Below are positions 33,849 through 39,388 of a stretch of DNA of 64,000 nt, piece by piece. The number at the start of each line of letters is the position of its first letter. The first letter of the stretch is position 1. The notes below the pieces were generated by a model. That model was given only the letters and a program-made list of their open reading frames with translations. It had not been told where the DNA came from and did no database searches. The stretch is from Numidum massiliense (GTDB lineage Bacteria > Bacillota > Bacilli > Thermoactinomycetales > Novibacillaceae). Both the position numbers and the translations under genes were made by a program. The stretch covers positions 2,349,758 through 2,413,757 of the forward strand of contig NZ_CTDZ01000009.1 of the NCBI RefSeq assembly GCF_001375555.1. Reading direction: 5' to 3'.

Positions 33849-35768
33849 TTAAGCATCGAGCCACGCCTCCAGCTCGGCAATCAACTCCTTGCGACCGACA
33901 ATGTCGCCTTCCGCGCCGCGGTCTGTCGCGGGATAGAGCTGTAACATAAACCCGTAAGAAAACGGGAATACGATGTCCTTCTGCTCGGCCCCCGGGTAAA
34001 CACAGATGATCTTTTTGATCGGATGGTGGTTATAGTTGCCAGCCCTACTAATGTAATTAATAGAAGTATAACCAGCCAGTTGCTCCATCGCCGCCGTTTC
34101 CCCTTTTCCCGGGGGATTCCAAATGTTATACAGCGGACTATATTTAACTTCAAAAATGATGGAGGAGCTGTACACCCATTCCGCCCCCACCTGGCAATAC
34201 TGATCGACTCGAATGTCAGGCTCCCGGTGCTCACTCATGCTGTAAAAGTATGAATCCTTTTCTAGCGCGAGCTTTTCGTTCGGCTGAATATACTCGTTGT
34301 ATACGACGTCAATGCGTTTATTTTCTTTTATCAATGTCACCTTGGTACCTTCTTCTAACCGTCCGCGACTGTAGAAGCTACTCAGCTGCTCTGACAAGTT
34401 GCCCCCAGGCGGTGTAAACCCAACCTCACTGAACGCTTCGATTAGTACAAAAAAGACGTAGTACTCATACAACAAATACGTCGGTTTAAACACTGGAAAG
34501 GGCATCGCTTGCATGTCGTTCACTTCGTTAAAAAGCCGCTCAGATTGCTCCCACAACCGGTTGAACAACTCGTATCCGGATCCGGCGCTCGCTCTAGTCC
34601 AACCGACACTTGCGCTCGTATCGTTTTTTGCGGGAACAGCGGCGACCGCACCCCAAAAAGGGGTGCTGATCGTCGCCACTAAACTCTTTTTATACGTACT
34701 AATTTGTTCCGCCAGCTGCTTCAAGCTGTCAATCGTTTCCTCGACCTTCTCTAATTTCTTTTCTTTGCCGAGCAATGCGTGTCGCAACCGCATCAATGAG
34801 CTTTCCGTCGTGTTCTTTTGATTTCGAATCACTGTCATGTCGTTCTGTAGATCATCGTGGTCGGCTAGTAAATGATCGCGTTCCTCTTGGTGGTTTGTCA
34901 TAACTTCCCTTAAAAAAACTGTTGCCGATGTCATGTACCGCACTATTTTGTTGACGCGATATTTAACTAGGCGGTTCGCCGCCGTATCCCAGTCTTCGTC
35001 TAGGCGCCGATTTATAAACCTTACATCCTGGTAAATACCCCCTTTAAACGAATGCTGCAGCCGCACACTGTGACGGTCGATCCGGCGCGGCTCTTTTTGC
35101 ACGACATACGTCCTTTTCCGTTGTATCCTGCTGTGCTGTTCGATAAGGTTAAGTGCTTGGAGTATGAGCCGCTCCTGCTGCGCGTACCATTGAAAGTAAC
35201 GCCAATAGCTGTACCGATCGGCGTCGCCAAGTGTCGCAACTGTTTTTTTGTAACTAAGGTCATCTTCTGTCAGGCCCAATACGTACGAATTAATGTACTC
35301 GCGAATGTGCTCTAGCTGCGCCGTAGTGACGTTTTTCGGAACGATGGTAAACCCGCCAAAGTAACTCCTCCCGTCGTAAACGACTTCGAAGTGATACGAG
35401 CCGCAGCGCCAGGGATAACTGTTATCGTCCTGATTTGCACCATTTTCATACAACGTTACCAACGACTTGTCGCTACTTAGGTGATAGACTTGATTTCCCT
35501 CGCTGCGCCCGTAAACATACACCTTATTCCAAATGAGCGCGACGTCGACGCGTACACCTTCTTTCCCGACCAGCTCGATTTTTAAGTCTTTTAATTCCGT
35601 GATCGTGTACATATATTGTTTTAGCTTATAGGTGAACTCTGTCAGGCGATCGATCGTCACGCTATCGATTTGTCTCCCTTTGCCGACGATTAAACGCAGA
35701 CAGAAGGGTAATTCGTATGTATCGTCGACGCGGATCCCCTCTGTCGCAAGGCTAGCGAACAAAGCCAT
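33849..35768 (-). CDS. DUF2357/McrC-like PD-(D/E)XK nuclease of a three-gene defence module
   Basis: A 639-residue protein with an N-terminal beta-rich DUF2357-like region, a helical/coiled-coil middle (about 300-365) and a C-terminal restriction-endonuclease-fold domain. The nuclease motif is visible: Asp in REPDIRVDQ (Asp518), then IIFEVKYS (Glu540-x-Lys542), then MEQLAGYTSINY as the Q-containing helix typical of McrC/DUF2357 nucleases. By analogy with McrC it should cut DNA or another nucleic acid when driven by the partner ATPase. The start ATG overlaps the end of the ATPase gene by 17 bases, so translation is probably coupled. It is the last gene of the module. Exact subfamily assignment needs profile searches. 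Confidence 0.75.
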   Translation of the reverse strand: MALFASLATEGIRVDDTYELPFCLRLIVGKGRQIDSVTIDRLTEFTYKLKQYMYTITELKDLKIELVGKEGVRVDVALIWNKVYVYGRSEGNQVYHLSSDKSLVTLYENGANQDDNSYPWRCGSYHFEVVYDGRSYFGGFTIVPKNVTTAQLEHIREYINSYVLGLTEDDLSYKKTVATLGDADRYSYWRYFQWYAQQERLILQALNLIEQHSRIQRKRTYVVQKEPRRIDRHSVRLQHSFKGGIYQDVRFINRRLDEDWDTAANRLVKYRVNKIVRYMTSATVFLREVMTNHQEERDHLLADHDDLQNDMTVIRNQKNTTESSLMRLRHALLGKEKKLEKVEETIDSLKQLAEQISTYKKSLVATISTPFWGAVAAVPAKNDTSASVGWTRASAGSGYELFNRLWEQSERLFNEVNDMQAMPFPVFKPTYLLYEYYVFFVLIEAFSEVGFTPPGGNLSEQLSSFYSRGRLEEGTKVTLIKENKRIDVVYNEYIQPNEKLALEKDSYFYSMSEHREPDIRVDQYCQVGAEWVYSSSIIFEVKYSPLYNIWNPPGKGETAAMEQLAGYTSINYISRAGNYNHHPIKKIICVYPGAEQKDIVFPFSYGFMLQLYPATDRGAEGDIVGRKELIAELEAWLDA

Positions 35769-37932
35769 TAGCGATCAACTCTTTTCTCTTCCGCTCCAGA
35801 AGCGCTAGCGATTTATGAAATGGGGACACTTGCTGCACCTCGGAGCTTTGTAAATACGTTACGAGAGATCCTTCGTCGTGTGCATTGCCGACGAGTGGCG
35901 CTAAAACAGTTTCTGTACCTTGTATTTTCGTTATAATTCTTTGAGCGACTTGCAAGTCGAACGCTACAGCGCGCGATAGTAGCGGTTCTCCCATGTCACA
36001 CAGCGGAATGTTCGCCATAAACTTGGCCATCGCTCGTGCCACGCGAAAGGAGACCCCTTTTTTTTGGTCTGCCTCGTGCAAGTATTCGTGCAATCTGTCG
36101 AGGATGGCAATTTCCTCCGGACTAAAGAACGTTAGCCCATCTTGTCCCGTCGCCCAGTCACAGCGATACGTTTCAGTCGTTATGTCGCTCCAGGCACCGG
36201 CAACTAGCTTGTCCTCTCTCTCTTCACCCTCTAGATCGCCGAACTGTTTACCGCTTTGGATACTTAGTTGCAGTGCCTCTGCAAACGACATCTTACCTGG
36301 GATAATCACGTTCGTACGGTCGAGTAAGCGATCGGAAAATCGCGTCGACGTCTCATCAAAATTGACGGTTCCAACAAAAATAATGTTACTGCCTATTTTG
36401 ATCGTCGCTTTGTACGGTTGATTCAAGCAGTGGTTGTTTTTGCTAAATAACGTTAAGTACCGTTCGTCTTCATCCACTTCGAGTAAAGAAATAAACGGAC
36501 TAAACCAGTGTTCCACTTGCGATAAATTCATTTCGTCAAACAGACACATATACATTTTTTCCGGATTGCTTTCCGCTGCGAGCAGTAAACTGACTAACTC
36601 GGTCTCGCTTTCGTAATAAATGCCTGTCGTCGGATTTAAGTACCCTAGTAAATCGTGCGGCTCTTGGTAGGACGGCGACATCGGGACCATGAGGAAATCC
36701 TTGCCTTTCGTAAGCCCCATCGTTTCGGCGTACAGTTGCACCAAATGCGATTTACCCGTTCCGGACATGCCTCCGACAATCGTAATTAAGTTCGTCTTCG
36801 CACTGACGTGGAACGATACGAGATCTTCTTCAGCGTAATAAAGGCCTCTTCGGGCCGCTTGTACCTTAAGTCGCTCGATAAACTGCCACTCGCTCGCGTG
36901 AACGTGTGGAAGCTCGCCAGGCGACGGCGACGTTTGAGTGGACATCGTCGATCGTACGGCCAGCGTACCGGTAGCTGCAGTTCCCGACGAGGCATCGCAC
37001 CCTGCTGTGTTTGTCGTCGAGGCGGTCGATGCAACGGCTGTTGAAGACGATGCAGCGGACACTCTGCTTGGAGCTGAGGCTGGCGCTGGTGCGTGGGGTG
37101 CCGCCTCGCTCGTGTACGCCGCCGCAGCCTCACTTTCCGCCTGCACGCACTCGTTGTGCGCATGTAAGCTAACACCTTTTTTTTGCATGTCGTCCCTAAT
37201 CATTTCTAATTTGTCGTTCGGGATGAAATACAAGTGATCGTCGATCCGCGCATCGACCCATTCACTAAACCGATCGGCAACGTCCCGCGCGACGATTTCC
37301 CCCCGGTCTTCTTGGACATACTGTGTATGTCCTCCGGCAGAAGTTAAAGAAACGCTATATAACTTCCCGTCGTAATGGACAAATTCGGGCGGAGCGAAAA
37401 GGTTCGGATATTTTGGCAAGGTAAACCGCCTCGTGGAGCTAATAAGTTTCTTTTCAAAGTCATCCCGTTTTTCATGCAGCCCTAACTGTGGGCTCGGTAT
37501 AATGCCGTAACCTCCCGAAAAAGGGTAAACGTTTTCAACTTTATGAATTTCCACATACACATACGATGGGGTCGGATTGAGAGAAAAAACGATAAGTTTA
37601 TTCGCTAGCAGCTGTTCAATCTGTTCTTTTTTTTCGTGGTGTGCGAGACGCTCGTAATTTATGAGTTCGTTGAATTTCCTTACGTTGTTGTAACTCCTTG
37701 TTCCCCCAATTAAGATTTGATTCGAATAGGCGAAGTTATCCGCGATCGCTGGCGGAATGGGGGATAAACATCTAATCATAAAACGAATATCCACACTGAA
37801 TTCGTCGTGGAAATATACCGGCTCTTGAAAGGGCGTTTCTCGTAAATCTTCCTCTGTCACTAACCGGCCGACGAAGACGGTATCCTCCAGTTTACGCCGC
37901 GTGATCGGATCAAAGCCTTCTTTTAATCTCAT
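35752..37932 (-). CDS. McrB-like AAA+ ATPase/GTPase of the defence module
   Basis: A 726-residue motor protein. Residues 1 to about 260 form an uncharacterised N-terminal region, probably target- or partner-binding. Residues about 262-345 are an Ala/Ser/Thr/Pro-rich low-complexity linker, and 350-726 carry a McrB-family AAA+ domain. Motifs: Walker A GGMSGTGKS (387-395), Walker B MCLFDEMNLS (462-471), sensor-like GTVNFDETS (521) and FSDRLLDRTNVI. The VNFDE segment corresponds to the MNxxDR-type signature that marks McrB enzymes, which use GTP. ATG 37932 follows GGAAGGAG; only one base separates it from the stop of the coiled-coil gene. The linker's composition and GC-rich codons differ from its neighbours. 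Confidence 0.85.
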   Translation of the reverse strand: MRLKEGFDPITRRKLEDTVFVGRLVTEEDLRETPFQEPVYFHDEFSVDIRFMIRCLSPIPPAIADNFAYSNQILIGGTRSYNNVRKFNELINYERLAHHEKKEQIEQLLANKLIVFSLNPTPSYVYVEIHKVENVYPFSGGYGIIPSPQLGLHEKRDDFEKKLISSTRRFTLPKYPNLFAPPEFVHYDGKLYSVSLTSAGGHTQYVQEDRGEIVARDVADRFSEWVDARIDDHLYFIPNDKLEMIRDDMQKKGVSLHAHNECVQAESEAAAAYTSEAAPHAPAPASAPSRVSAASSSTAVASTASTTNTAGCDASSGTAATGTLAVRSTMSTQTSPSPGELPHVHASEWQFIERLKVQAARRGLYYAEEDLVSFHVSAKTNLITIVGGMSGTGKSHLVQLYAETMGLTKGKDFLMVPMSPSYQEPHDLLGYLNPTTGIYYESETELVSLLLAAESNPEKMYMCLFDEMNLSQVEHWFSPFISLLEVDEDERYLTLFSKNNHCLNQPYKATIKIGSNIIFVGTVNFDETSTRFSDRLLDRTNVIIPGKMSFAEALQLSIQSGKQFGDLEGEEREDKLVAGAWSDITTETYRCDWATGQDGLTFFSPEEIAILDRLHEYLHEADQKKGVSFRVARAMAKFMANIPLCDMGEPLLSRAVAFDLQVAQRIITKIQGTETVLAPLVGNAHDEGSLVTYLQSSEVQQVSPFHKSLALLERKRKELIANGFVR

Positions 37933-37933
37933 A

Positions 37934-39388
37934 TTATGCATCTCCTTCCAAACAATAATTGATCGTGTTAACGATGCGCGCCGCACCACCACTCACAAAT
38001 TGATACGACCTGTTCAGCCCCTCCTCTAACGCGAACATATCTTTCGTCGATAGGCTGTCGGTGTCAATAAATAAAAACCTGCTATCACCTTTTTCTTCTA
38101 GTGTATTGATAAAGTTCTGCATCCCTACTAAATCTTCTAACGAAATATACTGCTCTTCGGTAAATAACAACCGATACAAAGGGTCGTCACGACAGCTGAG
38201 AAAGTAAAATTGCCTGTCTGCAAACAGTGCCATTTGCTGCAGCTGTTTGGGGTCCACCTGCATACGGTCCCTTTCCCCGAGCTGTTTGTCGCGTTCACGC
38301 TGTAGCTGTTCTTCCTGCTGTGCAACGACTTGCTCTAGCGCCGCTAGTTTCTGCTCCAATTGTTCATTCGTTCGCACAACGCCGTCATTCGCCAATTGCA
38401 GCTCCTCTTTTTTACACTTTAGCATGTCGTTCGCTCGTTGTAACTCCTCGTTTGCTTCCGTTAGTTCCCTATTTGCACGCGTTAGCTGTTCATTCGCCAG
38501 CTCCTGTTTTTTTACTAGCTCGTTCGCTTTCGTCTCTTGTTGCCTCACCCGCTTCTGTCGTTGTAAGTAGTTGTCCTTTTCCTTCTGTAGGGCGCGGTTG
38601 AGCGTTTCGGTCTCTCGCTTAAGGTCGTCTTGCAACTTGCTCATCCGTTCTAAGTGATCGCAGGCCGCTTTATACAGCGCGAGTGCATCCAGCAATGCCA
38701 ATTTCACGAGGGGCAGTTGATCCCCCGCCTCCCACTCCGTCCAGTCATCTCTGTACATACAGACGAGGTGAATGTACGCGCCTGTCAGTGGATCCGGCAA
38801 TTGGTCGGCAAGTCGATCCGTTAAAGCGCGCTGTGCATCCGCTTGTTGAACCGTGTCCGTTACAGGTGGTAGCGGATATTTGTTGGCGATTCCCGCCATT
38901 AGCTCGTCGGCAATTTCTTCGTGTAGGTCTAATAATGTCGTTAGTTTCACAGCGAGCGGCGGTGTCTCGGACAACAGTCCAGTAAACGGATCCATCTCTT
39001 CCGCGATGTTTTTAGTAATGGCCTCCCTGTGCTGCTCATAAAAGTCGGGGTATTTCAAGACTAACATACTTAGCCGACGCGCTGGTGAAAGTGCGGAGTC
39101 GAGCCCGGCCTGAAGCAAAAACTGCTCAACTGTTAAACGGTCATACTGATCTAAATGACCCGCTGTAGCCAACTGCTCGATGATGAACGTCGGCGGCTTG
39201 CGCTTAAGTTTTTGCTTCATAAATTTCTTTAGTAGACTTGGCGGCGCTTTGCTAATGTTTTTGGCGGAAAAACCGTGTACGTTCACTTGCAACAGTTTGA
39301 CGAATAAGATGCACTCCCTTTTGTCTAGCAACTCGATGACATCGTTTACAGCTTCTAGTTGCGTGTCATAATCTAAGTTAATTGCCAA
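37934..39388 (-). CDS. Coiled-coil protein, first gene of the McrBC-like module
   Basis: A 484-residue protein of unknown family. The N-terminal half (about 1-240) is predicted helical. Residues about 245-385 form a long coiled coil with heptad-like Leu/Ala and Glu/Gln/Asn-rich repeats (ELVKKQELANEQLTRANREL and similar). The last 100 residues change to an alpha/beta-like pattern (FYFLSCRDDPLYRLLF, SRFLFIDTDSLSTKD). TTG 39388 lies eight bases after GGGGGG; no better start was found. It is packed against the ATPase gene, so it is probably a subunit or sensor of the module. Known coiled-coil/McrBC tandems (CoCoNuT-type systems) offer a parallel, but homology could not be tested. Confidence 0.7.
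   Translation of the reverse strand: MAINLDYDTQLEAVNDVIELLDKRECILFVKLLQVNVHGFSAKNISKAPPSLLKKFMKQKLKRKPPTFIIEQLATAGHLDQYDRLTVEQFLLQAGLDSALSPARRLSMLVLKYPDFYEQHREAITKNIAEEMDPFTGLLSETPPLAVKLTTLLDLHEEIADELMAGIANKYPLPPVTDTVQQADAQRALTDRLADQLPDPLTGAYIHLVCMYRDDWTEWEAGDQLPLVKLALLDALALYKAACDHLERMSKLQDDLKRETETLNRALQKEKDNYLQRQKRVRQQETKANELVKKQELANEQLTRANRELTEANEELQRANDMLKCKKEELQLANDGVVRTNEQLEQKLAALEQVVAQQEEQLQRERDKQLGERDRMQVDPKQLQQMALFADRQFYFLSCRDDPLYRLLFTEEQYISLEDLVGMQNFINTLEEKGDSRFLFIDTDSLSTKDMFALEEGLNRSYQFVSGGAARIVNTINYCLEGDA

Follow-up and report, generated by a model that had tools for sequence, protein, structure and literature searches.

Type I-B CoCoNuTs are described by Bell et al. (2024, PMC11090510), in the part of that paper drawn on here, as members of the NxD branch that occur mainly in Bacillota and comprise a separate coiled-coil protein (CnuA), a CnuB protein without a coiled coil, and CnuC. 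The same part of the paper treats a helical insert lying between the Walker B and NxD motifs as the mark of Type I-A, places a CSD, often accompanied by a YTH-like domain, in the CnuB N-terminal region, assigns a PYD/CARD-like helical domain to the N-terminus of CnuA and an IG-like beta-sandwich to that of CnuC, designates the CnuA C-terminal domain as REC, with phosphorylation suggested as a possible means of control, and proposes a stress-response rather than an anti-phage role for the CnuA-less copies of Bacillus (Pseudo-Type I-B). As far as the relevant passages of other sources go, a cloned Type II CoCoNuT of Pseudomonas aeruginosa is among the systems that protect PAO1 from at least one phage (PMC12735699), a three-gene system on a Staphylococcus aureus island has been classed as Type I-B by homology, its RNA target not being established (PMC12554148), and a fourth CoCoNuT group has been added among Druantia systems (PMC12458937). 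Here, a three-gene operon within a 64,000-nucleotide stretch of the Numidum massiliense genome (assembly GCF_001375555.1, contig NZ_CTDZ01000009.1, positions 2,349,758 to 2,413,757; the whole stretch is referred to as the window) was compared with these systems. Judged by the described features, the module is, with a probability of about 0.75, an intact Type I-B CoCoNuT (CnuABC), i.e. a Type IV McrBC-derived restriction system, and it shares with most of its relatives a cnuC start codon placed exactly 17 nucleotides (nt) inside the end of cnuB. The features of the operon, in window coordinates, and of two of its products are as follows.

37934-39388, minus strand: cnuA-like gene, 484 amino acids, TTG start preceded by a purine run
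37933, minus strand: one-base gap between cnuA and cnuB, with the Shine-Dalgarno-like GGAAGGAG within the end of cnuA
35752-37932, minus strand: cnuB, encoding a McrB-like NxD GTPase, 726 amino acids, ATG start at 37932
35779-35784, minus strand: AAAGAG, Shine-Dalgarno-like, spanning the Lys and Glu codons of the KEL motif in cnuB, 10 nt ahead of the cnuC ATG
35752-35768, minus strand: 17-nt overlap of cnuB and cnuC, with the second and third bases of the cnuB Asn codon AAT supplying the AT of the cnuC ATG, and the initial base of the Gly codon that follows supplying its G
33849-35768, minus strand: cnuC, encoding a McrC-like DUF2357/PD-(D/E)xK nuclease, 639 amino acids
CnuA residues about 1-130: helical N-terminal domain; 225-369: one long helix, taken as the coiled coil; about 384-484: small alpha/beta C-terminal domain (all from a predicted model)
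CnuB residues 1-262: N-terminal region; 263-344: Ala/Ser/Thr/Pro-rich linker; from about 345: AAA+ GTPase and C-terminal part

An initial reading made from the letters alone (the sequence-only reading) had reported three minus-strand genes with a one-base gap, a 17-base overlap and intact motifs, all of which were recovered from the open reading frames (ORFs); the cnuB frame is open also from an upstream GTG at 37992, which would give a protein of 746 residues. CnuB carries the motifs GGMSGTGKS, LFDEMN and GTVNFDE, and the residues of its NxD signature, N524 and D526, are invariant in 33/33 aligned CnuB proteins (17/17 in the first set), from which the canonical Escherichia coli-type NxxD signature is absent. 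The distance between the Walker B Asn and the NxD Asn is 52-58 residues in all 33, so that there is no helical insert of the kind that marks Type I-A. The window protein matches AAA_5 (2.5e-5) and the PADLOC candidate-defence model PDC-M26A (9e-30), which likewise matches 33/33 aligned CnuB proteins, and a profile of the CnuB family matches E. coli McrB (6hz4) with an E value of 1.3e-5. The predicted CnuB model (mean predicted local distance difference test score, pLDDT, 84.4) superimposes on McrB of the E. coli McrBC complex (6ut6_D) with a Z score of 18.2 and a root-mean-square deviation of 2.8 over 187 residues, the matches in the fold search being taken up by the AAA+ domain. Ahead of the GTPase the model has neither a long helix nor a fused coiled coil, while the N-terminal region of approximately 260 residues is beta-rich and confidently modelled (block pLDDT 82-95). 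The linker (window 36901-37146), of which the stretch 275-338 is modelled with low confidence, is unusually long at 82 residues, the median among the 33 aligned proteins being 22; an 82-residue linker occurs also at locus L123.

The active site of the nuclease is similarly preserved. The window CnuC has P517 and D518, E540-x-K542 and Q563, and among 32 aligned CnuC proteins P517, D518 and K542 are invariant, position 540 is Asp in 24 and Glu in eight, and position 563 is Gln in 31. The DUF2357 model is found in 13/16 and PDDEXK_7 in 12/16 members of a CnuC alignment (A3), the window copy being in neither count; indeed, the window CnuC alone has no match to the DUF2357 model. A weak coiled-coil match was seen at approximately residues 286-366 of CnuC. 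With regard to CnuA, a long ORF lies upstream of cnuB at 86/99 testable junctions, or 84/97 if two broken cnuB copies are omitted. These are L145 and L146, where cnuB is split in two ORFs with the P-loop in the front half, so that the 'upstream ORFs' are in fact front halves of cnuB; both are present also in the alignment (A4) behind the CnuA model. CnuA evolves quickly, with G39 the sole nearly invariant residue of the family alignment, and a profile of its N-terminal domain, which is confidently helical in the model, matched 18 of 48 upstream ORFs from independent loci and one of 391 control ORFs; the remaining 30 are termed CnuA-like by position, length and a composition proxy only.

Membership of the family is secure for the features tested, i.e. 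NxD, a separate CnuA, a CnuB with no fused coiled coil and no insert, and the nuclease residues, and with NxD in 33/33 CnuB, a McrB-like fold (Z 18.2) and the catalytic residues kept in 32/32 CnuC proteins, the proposal that the locus is McrBC-derived, intact and of CoCoNuT type was borne out. Its likeness to Type I-B as presented in the cited part of PMC11090510 extends to the separate cnuA gene, the NxD CnuB without a fused coiled coil, the DUF2357-type PD-(D/E)xK CnuC and the host phylum, Bacillota; it differs in the 82-residue CnuB linker, and in that the phosphoacceptor Asp of the REC-like domain is not conserved in the family. A number of results weigh against this assignment. The CSD and YTH-like folds of the CnuB N-terminal region were unconfirmed, there being no PDB profile match, and an EVE profile built from 13 of 15 aligned matches gave a probability of 0.24 against the CnuB N-terminus versus 0.15 against CnuC as a control. 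Searches of PDB profiles similarly returned no significant match for a PYD/CARD fold in CnuA or for an IG-like N-terminal beta-sandwich in CnuC, Foldseek returned no match at E ≤0.001 with the CnuA model, and the REC fold of the CnuA C-terminal domain, with a block pLDDT of 44-70 and a best structural match of Z 7.2, was also unconfirmed. The PADLOC models for the partner nuclease, PDC-M26B, match 2/32 and 1/32 CnuC proteins and miss that of the window, so that the likeness to PDC-M26 lies in CnuB and not in CnuC. Finally, the searches made of the open literature turned up no functional test of a Type I-B system.

The position of the cnuC start codon was analysed in relatives chosen by CnuB similarity, independently of the junction. 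In the first 40 relatives, a cnuC ATG is located at exactly 17 nt in 39, with that of L122 lying 6 nt later. At least 571 relatives emerged from an alignment scan of genome contigs, and the 80 best were retained; together with the window and the first 40 relatives, 112 loci scoring at least 397 bits were assembled, and removal of six duplicates left 106 junctions. To be counted, a start had to be followed by an open frame of 100 codons, or by one reaching the limit of the stored DNA. By this measure a cnuC start lies at the 17-nt position in 98/106 junctions, comprising 96 ATG, one GTG and one TTG. The eight exceptions are four loci of one clade (three of them Paenibacillus) with AAC at this place and an ATG 6 nt later, L252 with CTG, and L214, L270 and L277, which are broken or cut. 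Loci left out of the 106 behave differently: a usable start at the 17-nt position is missing from all ten lower-scoring loci, whose overlaps are 26, 26, 23, 29, 23, -9, -6, -6, -6 and -12, and the same is true of ten more distant loci, L047-L056 (0/10), several of which have, by eye, an ATG elsewhere in the same CnuB region (e.g. at 20 nt in L048 and L053). The overlap of mcrB and mcrC in E. coli K-12 is 1 nt.

The start codon combines the final two bases of one CnuB codon with the opening base of the following one. The fixed junction could in principle merely mirror conservation of the CnuB protein (KAKEL...NGYT), with no selection on cnuC translation. Indeed, Lys, Glu and Leu of the CnuB tail are invariant in the first 17 proteins and, along with the Gly, nearly so in 33. 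The residue above the start is nonetheless variable, the CnuB codon being TAT in 43 loci, AAT in 38, CAT in 12, GAT in four, AGT, TTT and ACT in one each, AAC in four, and AAA and CGT in two damaged loci. Seven amino acids (Y, N, H, D, S, F and T) are thus encoded over the cnuC start with a constant T in third place, apart from the AAC clade and the damaged loci, and the GTG and TTG starts coincide precisely with the AGT and TTT codons. A FastTree phylogeny of 101 ingroup and five outgroup rows was calculated with the tail excluded, following removal of L145, L146, L231, L270 and L277; it has 29 open forks. Counting the fewest changes on this tree, the residue has changed approximately 20 times, the third-base T once (a loss) and the start at 17 nt twice, from which it seems that selection holds the start codon rather than the residue.

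Codon usage around the junction points the same way. The Shine-Dalgarno-like sequence sits in the Lys/Arg-Glu codons of KAKEL (Lys in 30, Arg in nine and other residues in two of 41 loci), and in the first 41 loci the Glu codon is GAG in 38/40, where 14.7 would be expected from the same genes, while the codon at the start site ends in AT in 40/41, where 26.3 would be expected. These expected figures ignore relatedness, and the tree count is the safer guide. In the larger set the bias in the Glu codon is slightly weaker (GAG in 84/97, GAA in 13/97), a point in favour of protein conservation as the sole cause. Taken together, the tree and the codons make that explanation unlikely. In the main text of Bell et al. 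(PMC11090510), the word 'overlap' appears twice, applied to HEPN or other nuclease partners and to CnuH/CnuE, never to cnuB/cnuC. A search of the open literature for translational coupling of mcrB and mcrC turned up only one review, PMC12707154, in a passage that concerns another kind of system.

CnuB matches at E ≤0.001 were present in 24/151 genomes, including that of N. massiliense, and the family profile gave near-full-length matches at E <1e-140 in 25/398 genomes of the class (again including its own), followed after a gap by partial matches at 5e-80; the corresponding figures are 5/42 genomes for the order and, at E ≤1e-100, 13/398 for a phylum sample, two of them partial. A scan of genome contigs with the single protein confirmed no relative, and scans of single proteins against Pfam, PADLOC and NCBIfam returned mostly coiled-coil noise for CnuA and CnuC. 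CnuB matches were found in 265 plasmid records, and six of the seven best were examined; all six have the same three-gene order, in keeping with the expectation that the unit recurs in other genomes, and four of the six have nearby genes that carry the annotation ABC-three component, HEPN, phage abortive infection or type I restriction subunit. Phage records yielded two short, weak CnuB matches. The 17-nt junction recurs in a relative whose upstream ORF has approximately 337 residues; it is located on a 120-kb viral contig (L289, IMGVR_UViG_2910903598_000004), which is possibly a prophage or plasmid. In the genome of L122 (G205) two CnuB matches lie approximately 5 kb apart (C1:771509-773443 and 778083-779255), one of them Type I-B-like and near full length, the other partial. 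Four loci from Bacillus sp. and Gottfriedia (L214, L218, L222 and L273) are without a long upstream ORF, have GAT over the cnuC start and resemble the Pseudo-Type I-B group; the cnuC frame of L214 ends after 20 codons.

The operon might alternatively be a Pseudo-Type I-B or other stress-response module as opposed to an anti-phage system. Pseudo-Type I-B loci have the CnuB/CnuC pair with the ATG at the same 17-nt place, the four likely members fall with the window in a starred 19-row group of the CnuB tree, and both genes directly flanking the window copy, the only two examined for defence context, are housekeeping genes. Conversely, cnuA is absent from Pseudo-Type I-B and present in the window, and a long upstream ORF is likewise found in the rows nearest to the window in the tree (L124, L209, L210 and L211), which renders this interpretation improbable. 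Less probable still is a canonical McrBC of the E. coli kind, acting on modified DNA and having the coiled-coil gene as an unrelated neighbour. Although the AAA+ McrB fold and intact PD-(D/E)xK residues are common to both, the window system has NxD in place of NxxD, an additional coiled-coil protein (a long upstream ORF being present at most testable junctions), and an overlap of 17 nt rather than one.

In an alignment of 36 CnuA C-termini, obtained after removal of L145, L146 and one duplicate, Asp occupies the last position of the third strand in two rows, one of which is the window, and an acidic residue is present in six if a shift of one column is allowed. Unless the third strand has been misplaced, the phosphoacceptor Asp is not a family feature, and to judge from the residues at this site, a 'receiver' of this kind speaks against control by phosphorylation. 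Structural likenesses of the domain to the ribosome factor Balon, archaeal and human release factors, RuvC and PPX/GppA, which would suggest an RNase H-like fold, reach Z ≤7.2 on a region modelled with low confidence (pLDDT 44-70) and were not relied upon. A suspected identity with DUF2325 was likewise abandoned, since none of ten pieces matched it in Pfam, and the three DUF2325 matches in 26 genomes were too few for a profile.

On balance, a combined proposal is favoured, albeit with less assurance than the class assignment itself. The CnuB tail, KAKEL-x2-(N/Y/H/D)-G-(Y/F), would encode at once protein, the ribosome-binding site of cnuC and its start codon, and would constitute a deeply conserved translational switch of Type I-B CoCoNuTs, in which the 17-nt overlap sets the CnuB:CnuC ratio and serves as a signature of the clade; the CnuA C-terminal domain, for its part, would not be a phosphorylated receiver in most members, so that the trigger would be another. 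By analogy with the family, the most likely mechanism is one in which CnuB would form an AAA+ GTPase ring, with its own N-terminal region recognising foreign or modified nucleic acid, and CnuA would act as a coiled-coil scaffold or sensor. CnuC would dock on the CnuB ring, stimulate GTP hydrolysis and cleave the target, be it RNA or DNA, by means of its PD-(D/E)xK site. The fixed start of cnuC would couple its translation to that of cnuB, and such coupling would leave CnuC scarce relative to the CnuB ring, which is consistent with the McrB(6):McrC stoichiometry given for the E. coli complex in a passage of PMC12707154. The sequence-only reading had offered replacement of the usual recognition subunit as one role for the coiled-coil protein; this fares poorly, given that CnuB retains approximately 260 confidently modelled N-terminal residues of its own. 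A defence function of the window copy is predicted from knowledge of the family together with its context.

The genes on either side match COX15-CtaA (1.5e-44; ctaA) and Hydrolase_2 (4.4e-16; a cell-wall hydrolase of cwlJ type), so that the module does lie between housekeeping genes as had been supposed, with only the three cnu genes in the intervening 5,916 bp. G001, of the genomes searched the only other one from this family, gave no CnuB match to either the protein or the family profile, and its ctaA and cwlJ-type genes are direct neighbours in divergent orientation. The matched blocks are separated by 170 bp (574736-574905), the match to ctaA starting at residue 16. The empty site in this genome agrees with a small insert between ctaA and cwlJ. 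The two flanks share no word of eight or more bases, direct or inverted, that might mark the insertion borders, a scan for promoters and terminators gave counts close to those of shuffled sequence (9 versus 6.9 and 9 versus 7.2), and the guanine plus cytosine content of the module is 48.6%, compared with 50.1% for the window.

The operon thus adds one genome to a defence type that is already described, while the double-coded junction and the absent phosphoacceptor go beyond the content of Bell et al. (PMC11090510) drawn on here. The junction provides a simple sequence signature of the clade, together with a testable rule for how the ratio of ring to nuclease may be set. The absence of the phosphoacceptor makes one proposed route of control less plausible, and directs attention to the N-terminal region of CnuB or the assembly of CnuA as the possible trigger.

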